The notes under the pieces are model-generated. The model was not told the DNA's origin and ran no database searches. It saw only the letters and a list, made by a program, of their open reading frames with translations. The translations under genes were made by a program, and so were the position numbers. Source: Frondihabitans australicus (GTDB taxonomy: Bacteria > Actinomycetota > Actinomycetes > Actinomycetales > Microbacteriaceae). From it: DNA of 64,000 nt. Shown one piece after another: positions 3,112-21,542 of this stretch. Position 1 is the first letter of the stretch; every line of letters starts with the position of its first letter. The stretch covers positions 1,550,001-1,614,000 of the forward strand of contig NZ_RBKS01000001.1 in the NCBI RefSeq assembly GCF_003634555.1. The letters are read 5' to 3'.

Positions 3112-3503
3112 CGCTGCGACGCCGTGGTGCGCTGCCGCTTGAGCGCGGCGCGCCGGGCACGACGCGCCTGGAACCAGGCGACGACGGCACGGACCCGGCG
3201 CTGCACCCACATGTTGAACCGGTGCGCGGCCGGGAACTCGGTGCCGAGGATCGCGAGGCCCAGGAACACGATCAGCCAGCCAGGCCCGGGCAGCGGGATG
3301 TCGATGATGCCGAAGATCACGATCGCGAGGCCGACGACGCCGACGACGATCTTGTAGGCCAGCCGCAGGCGAGGGTAGAGGTTGAGCTTCGCGCGGAAGA
3401 GGCGGGCGCGCTTGGCGACCTTCGAGTTGCGAAGACGGTGATGGGAGGCGGCGTGAGGCTGCTCCTGCGCCCCCTGCGCCCTCGGACCCGCCTCACTCGA
3501 CAT
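3108..3503 (-). CDS. TIGR02611/PGPGW-family small membrane protein
   Basis: 131 aa. The basic N terminus (residues 1-45, rich in Arg/Lys/His) precedes two hydrophobic segments around IVVGVVGLAIVIFGIIDI and GWLIVFLGLAILGTEF, separated by the signature PLPGPGW. The tail is again strongly basic (RRARRAALKRQR). This matches the PGPGW transmembrane family, of unknown function. TAGGAT at 3510-3515 (complement strand) lies 6 nt before the ATG, so the transcript is probably leaderless. Its 3' end overlaps the convergent neighbour by 4 bp. Confidence 0.8.
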   Translation of the reverse strand: MSSEAGPRAQGAQEQPHAASHHRLRNSKVAKRARLFRAKLNLYPRLRLAYKIVVGVVGLAIVIFGIIDIPLPGPGWLIVFLGLAILGTEFPAAHRFNMWVQRRVRAVVAWFQARRARRAALKRQRTTASQR

Positions 3504-17130: not shown

Positions 17131-18637
17131 CGTCTCTCCCCTGACCGCGGCCGCGCTCTCGGCTCCGGCTCGTGCCGTGCGCGAGCAGCGGCGACCGGGC
17201 GTCGTGCACCTCGGGCTCGGCGCCTTCCACCGGTCGCACCAGGCCTGGTACACGCAGCGTGCGGGCGGATCGGCCGGGTCGGTCGCGGCCGCCGGGTCGA
17301 CCGGTGCGGCCGGGTCGCAGGAGCCGACGGGCGAGCGCCCCTGGGGCATCGTCGCCTTCACCGGCCGTCGCCCCGACGCCGCGGCGACCCTCGCCGAGCA
17401 GGACTGCGTCTACACCCTCGTGACCCGCAGCGCCGACGGCGACGAGGCGTCGCTCGTCGACGCGATCGTCGCCGCGCACGACGGCGGAGACTCCGAGGTG
17501 TGGCGCGCGGCCGTCGCCTCCCCCGAGACCGCCGTCATCACCCTCACGGTCACCGAGGCCGCCTATCGCCACGTCGACGGCGGCGCCGACCTCGCCGCGC
17601 CCGACGTGATGGCCGACATCGACGCCCTCCGCCGTGGCGAGTCGGCCTCGACGGTGCCGGGTCGGCTCGTCGACGGCCTGCGCGCACGGCGGGGCGCCGA
17701 CGCCGGGACCTTGGCCGTCGTCTCCTGCGACAACCTCACCGGCAACGGCGACATCGCGCGTGACGTGGTGCTCTCGGTCGCGAACGCCGTCGACTCCGAC
17801 CTCGCCGCGTGGATCCGGGCGAACGCATCGTTCGTCTCGTCGATGGTCGACCGCATCACGCCCGCGACGACCGAGGCCGACCGCGCGGACGCCACTCGCC
17901 TCACGGGCTTCGACGACCGGGCCGTCGTCGTCGCCGAGCCGTTCGCGGAGTGGGTCCTCTCCACACGCGTCGCCGCCGACGGGCCGACCGATGCCTTCCC
18001 CGCGGGCCGTCCGGCCTGGGAGTCCGCCGGCGCCGTCTTCGTCGACGACCTCGAACCGTACGAGCACCGGAAGCTGTGGCTCCTCAACGCCGGCCACTCG
18101 CTCCTCGCCTACCTCGGCCCGCTCCTCGGGCACGAGACGATCGACGAGGCGATGTCCGACCCGCGGTGCACCGAACCGCTCGAGCAGCTGTGGGACGAAG
18201 CCGCCGAAGTGCTGCCGCTCCCCGCCGACGAGATCGACGACGCGAGGGCGGCCCTCCGCGAGCGCTTCCGCAACCCCCGCATCCGGCACCGGCTGCGGCA
18301 GATCGCCGCCGACGGCTCGGTAAAGCTTCCCGTCCGCGTCGTCGCGCCTCTCCGCGAGCGCCTCGCCCGAGGGCTCCCCGTCGGCCCAGGCGCCGCGACG
18401 GCCCTGGCCGCCTGGCACCTTCACGTGAGTCGGCAGGCGGACCTCGTCTCCGATCGAGGGGCCGCCGGGCTCGGAGCCGAGAGCAGCGTCTCCGACGTGC
18501 TCGAGCTGCTCGCGCCGGACCTCGCCACGAGGCCGGAGCCGGTCGCTGCGGTCGAGGCCGCGGAAGACCGGATCCTGCGCCTTCTCGACACCCCCGACAG
18601 ACACCGTTCACCCCAGCAGCAAGGAGCACCCGCATGA
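17123..18637 (+). CDS. uxuB: Fructuronate reductase / mannitol dehydrogenase family
   Basis: 504 aa. Long-chain mannitol dehydrogenase fold: [19 protein letters not shown] near residue 30 (cofactor site), [18 protein letters not shown] and [12 protein letters not shown] in the middle, and the catalytic-lysine region [23 protein letters not shown] 17123 overlaps the preceding gene by 8 nt; GTG 17117 is an alternative. Assigned as UxuB (D-fructuronate to D-mannonate, NADH) rather than mannitol dehydrogenase because it sits between uxaC and a mannonate dehydratase. A Ser/Gly/Ala-rich insert follows residue 45. Confidence 0.87.
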
Positions 18638-19872
18638 TCATCGACAGGGCCGAGGTCGTCGTCACCAGCCCCGACCGCAACTTCGTCACGCTGAGGCTCA
18701 CGACCGACGACGGTCTCGTGGGACTCGGCGACGCCACCCTGAACGGGCGCGAGCTCGCCGTGGTGGCGTACCTGCGCGAGCACGTGGTGCCGCTGCTGAT
18801 CGGGCGGGATGCGCACCGGATCGAGGACACCTGGCAGTTCCTCTACCGCTCGGCCTACTGGCGGCGCGGCCCGGTGACGATGGCCGCCATCGCGGCCGTC
18901 GACGTCGCCCTCTGGGACATCAAGGCGAAGGCGGCGAACATGCCGCTCTACCAGCTGCTCGGCGGGGCGTCGCGGACGGGCCTGCTCACCTACGGGCACG
19001 CGTCGGGCAAGTCGCTCGACGAGCTGTTCGACTCCGTGCGATCGCACCAGGAGCAGGGGTACAAGGCCATCAGGATCCAGACCGGCGTGCCCGGCCTGAA
19101 GTCGATCTACGGCATCGCGTCGAACGCCACCTTCGAGGCCAACAAGGGCGTGCGCTACGACCACGAGCCCGCCCAGCGCGGCTCGCTGCCCAACGAGGAG
19201 GACTGGGACACCCGCTCGTACCTCCGCCACGTGCCGACGGTGTTCGAGGCGGTGCGGAACGAGTTCGGCCCCGAGATCCCGCTGCTGCACGACGGGCACC
19301 ACCGGATGACGCCGATCCAGGCCGCGTCGCTCGGCAAGTCGCTCGAGCCCTACGACCTCTTCTGGCTGGAGGACGTCACGCCCGCCGAGAACCCGGAGGC
19401 GCTGCGGCTCGTGCGCCAGCACACCACGACGCCGCTCGCGATCGGCGAGATCTTCAACACGGTGTGGGACTACCAGCAGATCATCCGCGAGCAGCTCATC
19501 GACTACGTCCGGTCGGCGGTGACCCACACCGGCGGCATCACGCACCTGCGCCGGGTGATGGACTACGCGGCGCAGTACCAGATCAAGTCGGGATTCCACG
19601 GGCCGACCGACATCTCGCCGGTGGGCATGGCGGCCGCGATGCACCTCGGGCTCGCGATCCACAACTTCGGGATCCAGGAGTACATGAAGCACGGCGCGCG
19701 CACCGACGAGGTGTTCCAACAGTCGTTCACGTTCGAGGACGGCATGCTGCACCCGGGATCGCAGCCCGGGCTCGGCGTGACCCTCGACGTCGACGAGGCC
19801 GGCAAGTACCCGTACGAGCAGGCGTACCTCCCGTACAACCGGCTGGCCGACGGGACCGTGCACGACTGGTAG
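18634..19872 (+). CDS. manD: D-mannonate dehydratase, enolase superfamily (ManD/RspA type)
   Basis: 412 aa, typical length. Converts D-mannonate to 2-keto-3-deoxy-D-gluconate. Motifs: [20 protein letters not shown] near residue 55; metal ligands Asp in [12 protein letters not shown], Glu in [12 protein letters not shown] and Glu in [12 protein letters not shown]; His in [13 protein letters not shown]-terminal [11 protein letters not shown] typical of ManD. An AAGGAG site precedes the start, which overlaps the uxuB stop. Last gene of the operon; a long palindrome lies 28 bp downstream. Some relatives have low mannonate activity, but the neighbouring genes support this one. Confidence 0.9.
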
Positions 19873-19900
19873 GCGCCCGGCCTGCCCTTCACGTAGTCGC

Positions 19901-19955
19901 GAGATCGCACTCGTTGTCGCCTGGATAGCCTCCTTGCGACAACGAGTGCGATCTC
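19901..19955. repeat. Family B palindrome, copy 1
   Basis: Perfect 20-bp arms GAGATCGCACTCGTTGTCGC (19901-19920) and its complement (19936-19955) with a 15-nt loop. It lies between the convergent manD and DUF559 genes and could terminate both. The DUF559 stop codon (TCA at 19954-19956) overlaps the right arm. A related repeat lies at 20891-20947 beyond the other end of the DUF559 gene. Confidence 0.88.
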
Positions 19956-20832
19956 ACATCCGGTCGAGCCTGAGCGCGGACCTCAGACGACCGAGGAACT
20001 CGCGCGAGTGTGGGCCGAGATCGTCGTCGGTCACGCGAAGGGTTCGCCACCCGGCCGCCGCGAATCGCTCACGACGCCGGATGTCGCGGCGCCACTGGTC
20101 GCGATCCGTTCGGTGATGGTCGCCCTCGTACTCGATGCCCAATCGGACCGACGGGTAGCCGAGGTCGGGGCGCCCGATCTTGACGCCCCGGGAGTCGTAC
20201 ACGGGCCGATTGCAGGAAGGCTCCGGCAGTCCGTCACGAATGATGAGCAGCCTGAGCTCGGTCTCTTTCGCGGATTCGACGTTCTCGCGGACGAGCGCGA
20301 GCGCCTCGCGCAGGCGGACAGCATGCCGGCCTCCGGCATGTCTCGCCACCGCGGCGACGAGAAGGTCCCGGCCACCGCCGCTTTCGGGGCCCGCGACCGC
20401 GTCGCCGAGCGCGACGAGCTGATCAAGCGAGAGGATCCCCGCGCATTCGACGAAGACGTCGGCGGACTCACTCACGCGCAGACCGTCGACCTCGATCGAG
20501 GCCGGCGAGACCGATCGGTGCCCGGCCACGCCTCGCCGCCGCATCACGGCGCCCGTCCCGGTGGTCGTCACGTGGATCAGCCCCGATCGGAGCCTCCACG
20601 GCAGCGGCAGCTTCAGGAGAGCGGCCGCCGTTGCATGGCTGAAGCGCTGTGCAGGCGCGAGCGCGGGCCACAGCGACTGCGGTGTGAGTCCCGTCCCGAC
20701 CGGGGCGCGCAGGCCGACACCAGGAGCCTCGAGATCGGCTCGACGCAGGCGTTCCCGGCCGACAGAGGGGACGGCGTCGGCCACTCGAAACGGCGCGCCG
20801 TCGAGCAACGGAGGCAGAGGTCGCGGACGCAT
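19954..20832 (-). CDS. DUF559 (PD-(D/E)XK-like) nuclease-domain protein
   Basis: 292 aa from ATG 20832; an upstream ATG at 20901 would start inside an inverted-repeat arm. The first ~190 residues resemble the regulator-like region common to actinobacterial AbiEi/DUF559 proteins ([38 protein letters not shown]). The C-terminal ~90 residues form a Vsr/DUF559-type nuclease fold: [20 protein letters not shown], then [18 protein letters not shown]. The Asp, Glu-Tyr-x-Gly and His positions look intact. It stands alone among metabolic genes and is bracketed by family B inverted repeats, with its 3' end inside one. Role unknown; DNA repair, defence or repeat-associated activity are all possible. Confidence 0.8.
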
Positions 20833-20890
20833 GCCGACAGGGTGCCGGAGGTGTCGGCTCCTGCTCAGAATCTGTCCACAGGTGCTTGGC

Positions 20891-20947
20891 CGAGATCGCA
20901 TTCGTCGTCGCTTCGGACGACGGGAGGCGACAAGTCGTGCGATCTCG
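20891..20947. repeat. Family B palindrome, copy 2
   Basis: Arms 20891-20911 and 20927-20947 with a 15-nt loop, the same geometry as copy 1. The left arm CGAGATCGCATTCGTCGTCGC differs from copy 1 at two positions. The arms pair well for the outer 10 bp and the inner 5 bp, with mismatches between. It lies between two divergent genes (start 20832 minus, start 21015 plus), so it cannot be a simple terminator. Confidence 0.75.
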
Positions 20948-21014
20948 CGCAGCCGGTGAACCTCGCGTCGAGCGGAGCCGTGTAGAAGGGAGACGAGACT
21001 TCGACAGGAGAGAC

Positions 21015-21542
21015 ATGAGCACCCCGTACGACATCATCGGCGACGTCCCCGCCTTCACCCTCACCTCGACCGACGTGGCCGACGGCCAGACCCTGCCGAC
21101 GCCGCAGGTCTCGGGCATCTTCGGCGCCGGCGGCGACGACGTGAGCCCGCAGCTGGCGTGGGAGGGCTTCCCGCCCGAGACGAGGAGCTTCGCGATCACG
21201 ATGTACGACCCCGACGCGCCGACCGGCTCGGGGTTCTGGCACTGGGCCGTGGCGAACGTGCCGGCGACCACGACGTCGCTCGCCTCGGGTGCAGGCGATG
21301 CCGCAGGATCCGGGCTCCCTTCCGGCGCCGTCCAGCTGAAGAACGACGGCGGGCTCGCGCACTTCCTCGGGGCTGCTCCCCCGCAGGGCCACGGCCCGCA
21401 CCGCTACTTCATCGCCGTGCACGCTCTCGACGTCGAGTCGCTCGACTTCTCGGGCGACGAGACGCCAGCGTTCCTCGGCTTCAATATGTTCGGCCACACG
21501 CTGGCCCGCGCCGTGATCACGCCCATCTACGAGGTGTGGTAG
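21015..21542 (+). CDS. YbhB/YbcL (PEBP/RKIP-like) family protein
   Basis: 175 aa, the usual size. PEBP landmarks: [40 protein letters not shown] (the ligand-binding DPDxP and HW motifs), and [20 protein letters not shown] precedes ATG 21015. Bacterial members are cytosolic with unknown ligands. It is divergent from the DUF559 gene with a family B palindrome between them. Confidence 0.88.

Follow-up and report, generated by a model that had tools for sequence, protein, structure and literature searches.

A nuclease gene in the window, the 64,000-nucleotide stretch of Frondihabitans australicus DNA analyzed here, is bracketed by two palindromes with shared arm sequences. Many homologous genes, drawn from several genera within the family and from further families of the order, likewise have a palindrome close by, in part on both sides. 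Where both sides have one, the arms match across a gene. They vary from one gene to the next and, in most genomes rich in scattered palindromes, recur in the scattered copies as well. The pairing of nuclease and palindromes is near certain. On balance, we favor the reading that they form a cognate pair, which resembles REP palindromes and RAYT transposases in its working and is built on an unrelated enzyme.

The nuclease and its palindromes in the window

Features of the locus are collected in Table 1. In palindrome 1 (19901-19955), perfect arms of 20 bp enclose a centre of 15 nt. Palindrome 2 is weaker: over 20891-20947 its arms measure 24 bp and are 75% complementary and, in register with palindrome 1 (20892-20946), its outer 9 bp are perfect and 15 of 20 arm positions are paired. 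On the score also used for the homologue survey below, palindromes 1 and 2 reach 20.6 and 10.8, respectively. Their left arms agree at 18 of 20 positions and their right arms at 17 of 20, which bears out the initial annotation in its description of two related inverted repeats of this geometry around one gene. Also as described there, the nuclease stop codon (19954-19956) overlaps the first repeat, by 2 nt. The first ATG of the open reading frame falls inside palindrome 2. The alignment of homologues favors the ATG at 20832 (292 aa) as the likelier start, so palindrome 2 probably lies just upstream of the coding region. A version of the window palindrome with 18 specified bases was matched five times in the window genome (4.04 Mb) and 0 times by the reversed control pattern, more than chance would give. 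A search of positions 19800-21050 against Rfam returned no match, and no intron or intein was seen at the window.

Table 1. Positions (in the window) of the palindromes, the nuclease with its domains, and the neighboring genes
Feature	Position	Strand	Remarks
ManD (D-mannonate dehydratase) neighbor	18634..19872	+	Site marker; 92-93% identical in three congeners
Palindrome 1	19901..19955	.	3' of nuclease gene; arms GAGATCGCACTCGTTGTCGC / GCGACAACGAGTGCGATCTC, 15-nt centre
AbiEi-Vsr nuclease ORF	19954..20901	-	315 aa; likelier start 20832 (292 aa)
C-terminal domain	19957..20280	-	Residues 185-292; Vsr / EDxHD nuclease fold
N-terminal domain	20287..20829	-	AbiEi-antitoxin-like fold over residues 2-182 (292-aa numbering); presumably binds DNA
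Palindrome 2	20891..20947	.	5' of nuclease gene, between divergent genes; outer arm GAGATCGCA...TGCGATCTC, inner arm imperfect
YbhB/YbcL (PBP) family neighbor	21018..21542	+	Divergent from nuclease; site marker; 75-78% identical in five congeners

The enclosed gene had been called DUF559-type. The name DUF559 fits loosely: the protein matches Pfam MTES_1575 at E 4.9e-7 (30.2 bits, under the cut-off of 38.2) and DUF559 at E 0.088. The MTES_1575 REase is described as a Vsr-family REase domain (PMC3710099, excerpt). A confident structure model of the window nuclease (mean pLDDT 95.7, pTM 0.91) falls into two domains. Over residues 2-182 its fold resembles that of the AbiEi antitoxin 6y8q_A (Z 12.2, rmsd 5.5, 172 aligned), and over residues 1-193 that of Rv2827c, 1zel_A (Z 8.6, rmsd 3.6, 179 aligned). 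Residues 185-292 match the catalytic domain of I-Bth0305I, 3r3p_A (Z 11.8, rmsd 2.6, 93 aligned), NGO0050, 3hrl (Z 10.5, rmsd 3.0, 92 aligned) and Vsr, 1cw0_A (Z 10.2, rmsd 2.4, 98 aligned, 26% identical). TnsA chains are also among the fold matches (Z 6.5-6.6), a list to which further folds could be added. According to the model, the window protein thus joins an AbiEi-antitoxin-like domain to a nuclease domain of the Vsr/EDxHD type.

In an alignment of 68 homologues, E190, D223 and H240 never vary and E234 and D250 hardly do. The conserved E, D, H and D stand in the order of the EDxHD name and may correspond to its residues. At E 0.01, Pfam recovered MTES_1575 in 55, DUF559 in 32 and AbiEi_4 in one of these 68 proteins, and no other families. 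PADLOC, run on three proteins, gave weak matches, the best (E 7.7e-4, L046) being to a methyl-directed REase model. Of 150 genomes of the family, 103 have a match to the nuclease family, as do 119 of 149 genomes of the order. Relatives turned up in one phage record and three plasmid records, so those found here are mainly chromosomal. The window genome carries four family nuclease copies; the other three are 44-50% identical to that of the window. One of these three (L067, G000:C1:3521392-3522272) is in two pieces and is probably a broken copy.

Palindromes around homologous nucleases

The flank survey drew on 121 distinct homologues from fetched loci, of which two were dropped for short or masked flanks. 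A 400-base flank filter removed 15 protein rows (A1) that had entered the input by mistake. A palindrome was considered strong if it scored at least 14 within about 200 bp of the gene end. Strong palindromes were present upstream of 65 and downstream of 65 of the 119 remaining genes, at either end of 88 and at both ends of 42. For control windows taken from these loci the figure was 38 of 1657, and for shuffled flanks 0 of 238. The 119 genes count the broken copy, L067, and are not independent, as several of them are orthologues that share a site. The window gene is absent from the 42, since palindrome 2, with its score of 10.8, leaves it with a single counted end. The remaining 31 genes have no strong palindrome within 200 bp of either end; for some of them this is because the palindromes sit farther out, as at L312, where GAGATCGCA sites lie 136-225 nt upstream of the nuclease.

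Where both ends carry a palindrome, the two are related. Mean similarity was 0.62 for the own pairs of the 42 two-sided genes and 0.13 for 1722 mismatched pairs. The own pair lay beyond the 99th percentile of the mismatched pairs in 41 of 42 genes and beyond the 95th in all 42. One of these 41 matches, L261, is not a true pair, as a GC-rich repeat and a terminator-like hairpin score highest there. The comparison replaces an earlier one, from which nine loci had been omitted as lacking a nuclease, having a broken copy or being duplicates, and in which 21 of 45 loci exceeded the 99th percentile of mismatched pairs. The search for flanking arms at other family nucleases, suggested in the initial annotation, was thus positive for palindromes (88/119 at either end), with arms specific to each gene. 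The genes surveyed come from several genera within the family and also from further families of the order.

Palindrome similarity covaries with protein similarity (57 genes; Mantel rho 0.199, the largest value of 500 permutations being 0.149). Over 130 palindromes, the median arm length is 26, the median centre 11 and the median total length 61.5 bp. Covariation inside the arms is modest, z reaching 4.9 at certain inner positions but being absent or negative at others, and lends weak support. At L135 (G378), matched palindromes at 1342-1410 and 3208-3270 enclose the nuclease together with the next gene, which looks epimerase-like from its sequence.

AbiEi is a repressor, so binding of the palindromes by the nuclease could serve regulation alone. 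The palindromes would then be AbiEi-type operator sites through which the nuclease is repressed, with no role in spread. Consistent with such autoregulation, the N-terminal domain has an AbiEi fold, the upstream palindrome stands directly before the likely nuclease start, and the promoter inverted repeats bound by AbiEi and Rv2827c resemble the palindromes in size and spacing (PMC7319586, excerpt). However, an operator leaves unexplained the matched 3' palindrome, which is equally frequent (65/119), as well as the dozens of scattered copies at gene ends described below, and we consider it unlikely.

Scattered copies and the fate of the unit at its sites

The window genome (G000) contains five GAGATCGCA...TGCGATCTC palindromes, two at the nuclease and three without a nuclease within about 3 kb. 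Arms occurring equally often away from such genes had been named in the initial annotation as counting against a mobile unit; three of five do so here, but in most high-copy cases scattered copies follow the arm type of the nuclease. The GAGATCGCA type was found in 20 of 398 family genomes (reversed control, 0), eight of which have at least five copies: G378 (69), G295 (38), G150 (29), G004, G031 and G105 (27 each), G086 (9) and G000 (5). In six of these eight (G000, G004, G150, G105, G295 and G378) a nuclease is bracketed by the GAGATCGCA arm, imperfectly on one side in G004 and G105. The exceptions are G031, where the nuclease at the site has only half-sites and a variant arm, and G086, whose nine copies have a different inner arm and where no matching nuclease was found in the two of five nuclease loci inspected. 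Among the inspected loci of the twelve genomes with one to four copies, none showed a nuclease with this arm; G033, a GAGATCGCA carrier, has no nuclease match at all.

At the genus site, GAGATGGCC arms accompany the nucleases of G201, G246 and G285, an arm switch relative to the window nuclease. Palindromes of this type occurred in four of 299 genomes, namely G201 (21), G246 (7), G285 (5) and G004 (10), nuclease-side copies included; the reversed control had one match in the 299 genomes, in G271. From the nuclease arm, the copies in G201, G246 and G285 were foreseen and found. Those in G004 were unforeseen, its nuclease at the genus site carrying GAGATCGCA. Four of 150 genomes contained a third type, GAGAGTGCA, defined on the G063 nuclease: G063 (6), G129 (2), G041 (2) and G004 (1). 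A nuclease with this arm is present in G063 (two of the six copies at the gene) and G129 (one of the two), and the nearest nuclease arm in G004 is GAGAGTGCT (L070). From genome to genome, then, outlying copies go with the arm of the nuclease in most high-copy cases, and this speaks for a REP-like system over a simple cassette transposon.

Several further palindromes were observed. In G004, three GAGATCGCA and two GAGATGGCC palindromes take turns in a regularly spaced array (L185, 2148-2509), an arrangement known from BIMEs. In genus g3 (L098-L100; G200, G284 and G149), the palindromes of one family, AGGAGATCGCACG..CAGGA, have a centre of 17 nt and the GAGATCGCA core; no matching nuclease was found in the inspected loci. 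The window genome has a second palindrome type of ~58 bp, GCGACAAAACGCGACACCTGCGACGC with a close variant, at least three times in two places (L064, 6298-6355 and 6862-6921; L063, 6240-6297), and those stretches contain no nuclease match. Inverted repeats sharing TGCGTGATGGCTCCGCCCT (L062, 3459-3530 and 3659-3698) lie close to a solo palindrome in this genome and, by the look of the sequence, adjoin a tRNA 3' end.

Many scattered copies stand in arrays. In the stretches of five g31 genomes (coding fraction 0.87), 121 of 123 copies lie outside predicted genes, a count that may overstate their intergenic character because the home-made gene finder used for the g31 loci missed the window's own nuclease gene and shortened another. 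Most palindrome sites compared between g31 species are shared, with changes in array copy number; within these palindrome-bearing stretches, turnover between species looks slow.

The scattered palindromes could be intrinsic terminators or other structural 3' elements, two of which merely happen to flank the nuclease. Their orientation agrees with this, as 46 of 83 sites are convergent, 32 tandem, one divergent and four at an edge, while the gaps of at least 60 bp in the same g31 loci comprise 79 convergent, 145 tandem and 74 divergent ones. On the other hand, TTTT was absent within 10 nt of all 123 copies in the five g31 genomes, although actinobacterial terminators may lack such a run, and palindrome 2 sits between divergent genes, the position for which the initial annotation had already rejected a terminator. 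Nor would terminators be expected to have gene-specific arms that match across a gene and track the nuclease arm type between genomes. We therefore regard this explanation as improbable.

A further possibility is that the palindromes are terminal inverted repeats of an ordinary, IS-like transposon with a PD-(D/E)XK transposase, to which the TnsA chains in the fold list would be suited. The initial annotation, too, had proposed a small cassette and possible mobile element, and its cassette stands insofar as the unit of palindrome, nuclease and palindrome recurs across the family and order with gene-specific arms. A case for movement comes from two congeners (L066 and L071), in which nucleases with 67% aa identity and matching palindromes occur in unrelated surroundings; blastn homology over the 6.5-kb stretches is confined to the gene and its palindromes. 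In the genus, however, the site is largely conserved, and the initial annotation had named a constant location as evidence against its idea: of seven genus genomes, six have a family nuclease within 5 kb of the PBP gene, and in four ManD is adjacent as well. Hence the unit in the window is not a recent insertion. Both genes beside it are metabolic. Moreover, the four copies of the window genome have diverged and one is broken. The clean empty sites and target duplications by which insertion was to be recognized were not found among the relatives compared. Outer-flank strings were not shared in excess in 40 units (own mean 3.25 vs 3.16; L261 and L172, whose best upstream hairpin is a GC-rich tandem repeat, were left out of the outer-flank and tag counts). 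For one G378 palindrome compared with G105 and G031, the spacer was not alignable. The G295 site orthologous to L135 of G378 is without nuclease and palindromes, and gives no clean boundary because the neighboring gene is missing too. An ordinary transposon is accordingly quite improbable.

Instead, the nuclease diverges at fixed sites. In congeners, identity to the window proteins is 92-93% for ManD (three), 75-78% for PBP (five) and 44-54% for the nuclease (five). At one g31 site, the flanks of five species are 86-95% identical at the nucleotide level over 3.9-10.2 kb; the nucleases are 48-80% identical at the amino acid level, nine of ten pairs falling at 48-56%, and the gene is inverted relative to the flanks in six of ten pairs. 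There, the nuclease diverges faster than its flanks, and flips. Taken together with the conserved sites and the L066/L071 case, this indicates a unit that persists at its site for long, is exchanged or inverted in place, and now and then turns up at another location. In 116 of 119 loci the nuclease has a lower GC3 than its neighbors, although the comparator, the highest GC3 among long frames, exaggerates the contrast.

A proposed cognate pair and its resemblance to known systems

In the favored reading of a cognate pair, the AbiEi-like N-terminal domain would bind the two arms of ~20-26 bp of its own palindrome type, probably with one monomer per arm, as does AbiEi on two 23-bp inverted repeats. 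The latter are 3 bp apart, and Rv2827c has two pairs of repeats with 13 bp between repeats (PMC7319586, excerpt). Palindrome arms and centres are near these sites in size, so a dimer on duplex DNA would be the natural reading. Judging from this geometry and the modeled fold, the nuclease probably recognizes its own palindrome. We infer that the fused Vsr/EDxHD domain would then nick or cut at the palindrome. Repair of such cuts might copy palindromes into other intergenic places and arrays, and might exchange, invert or lose the flanked nuclease unit. The gene with its two flanking palindromes would constitute the autonomous unit, and the scattered copies would be non-autonomous. That the nuclease drives the spread of the palindromes is plausible, and we advance it tentatively.

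This pairing is similar to that of REP palindromes and RAYT (TnpA_REP, 'REPtron') in four respects. RAYT genes have matched flanking palindromes, scattered intergenic copies and arrays, fast gene evolution, and palindromes matched to the gene type (PMC2817692, excerpt). Likewise, the nuclease gene stands between two matched palindromes (two-sided in 42/119, matched in 41/42 of these, none in 31/119), scattered copies and arrays are mostly outside genes, the gene evolves faster than its neighbors, and gene type goes with its own palindrome type. In contrast, the enzyme here combines AbiEi and Vsr/EDxHD domains, and its palindromes exceed those of REPs in length (median 61.5 bp vs 20-40 bp; PMC3733652, excerpt) and are not enriched in a GTAG/GTGG or CGTC tag. 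Because its enzyme is not of the HUH/Y1 kind, the nuclease system is REP/RAYT-like and yet not a member. The suggestion that these are REPs moved by a RAYT (Y1 tyrosine transposase) encoded elsewhere, with the nuclease as a passenger, would account for the REP-like distribution, the arrays and the 3'-end preference, but is largely refuted, since PF01797 was found in 0 of 11 genomes, including seven of the eight with at least five GAGATCGCA copies (all except G086), in a search that was positive in 5 of 14 known genomes and that a divergent HUH gene could escape, and since GT[AG]G is not enriched at dispersed (9/123 vs 57/615 control positions) or flanking palindromes (10/130 vs 82/650).

The AbiEi and Rv2827c type IV antitoxins share with the window protein the N-terminal fold (Z 12.2 and 8.6) and inverted-repeat sites of similar size and spacing (PMC7319586, excerpt). 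Here, however, the domain is fused to a nuclease, the genes adjoining it in the window are ManD and PBP and not an AbiEii-type toxin gene, and palindromes also occur 3' of the gene and elsewhere in the genome. The catalytic-domain fold is that of the EDxHD homing endonuclease I-Bth0305I and of Vsr (Z 11.8 and 10.2), whereas the nuclease described here is a free-standing gene flanked by palindromes. Caulobacter VsrA (DUF559) is likewise a chromosomal Vsr-like DUF559 nuclease. It causes an SOS response in a subset of cells without the methyltransferase ScmA, and the text of that report has no mention of 'palindrom' (PMC12907096). In the literature, a search of titles and abstract beginnings for palindromic repeats associated with DUF559, MTES_1575, Vsr or AbiEi found no report; most subscription papers and bioRxiv were outside its scope.

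A single class of enzymes, the HUH RAYTs, has so far been linked to REP palindromes, and for CGTC REPs there is apparently no transposase of their own (PMC3733652, excerpt). If the cognate pair is real, a second, non-homologous enzyme has the same genomic habits, and enzyme-palindrome pairs arise convergently. A common, little-studied gene family would then gain a specific, testable role. The natural congeners with switched arms would provide a ready specificity assay. Going further, and with more reserve, we suggest an independently evolved REP system. In it, a repurposed antitoxin domain would allow a hydrolytic AbiEi-Vsr nuclease to read palindromes in double-stranded form, and cut-and-repair would spread them with no need of HUH chemistry, throughout the order and perhaps further in Actinobacteria. 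AbiEi-Vsr enzymes would in that case be candidates for the missing partners of other 'orphan' palindromic repeats, CGTC REPs for example. Outside the order, three of four homologues (L328, L329 and L334) have no strong palindrome, and the fourth, L330 from Mycolicibacillus trivialis, has a downstream one, CGCGAGTGAAGTTCTGTGGCGG..., which hints that the association could extend further in Actinobacteria.
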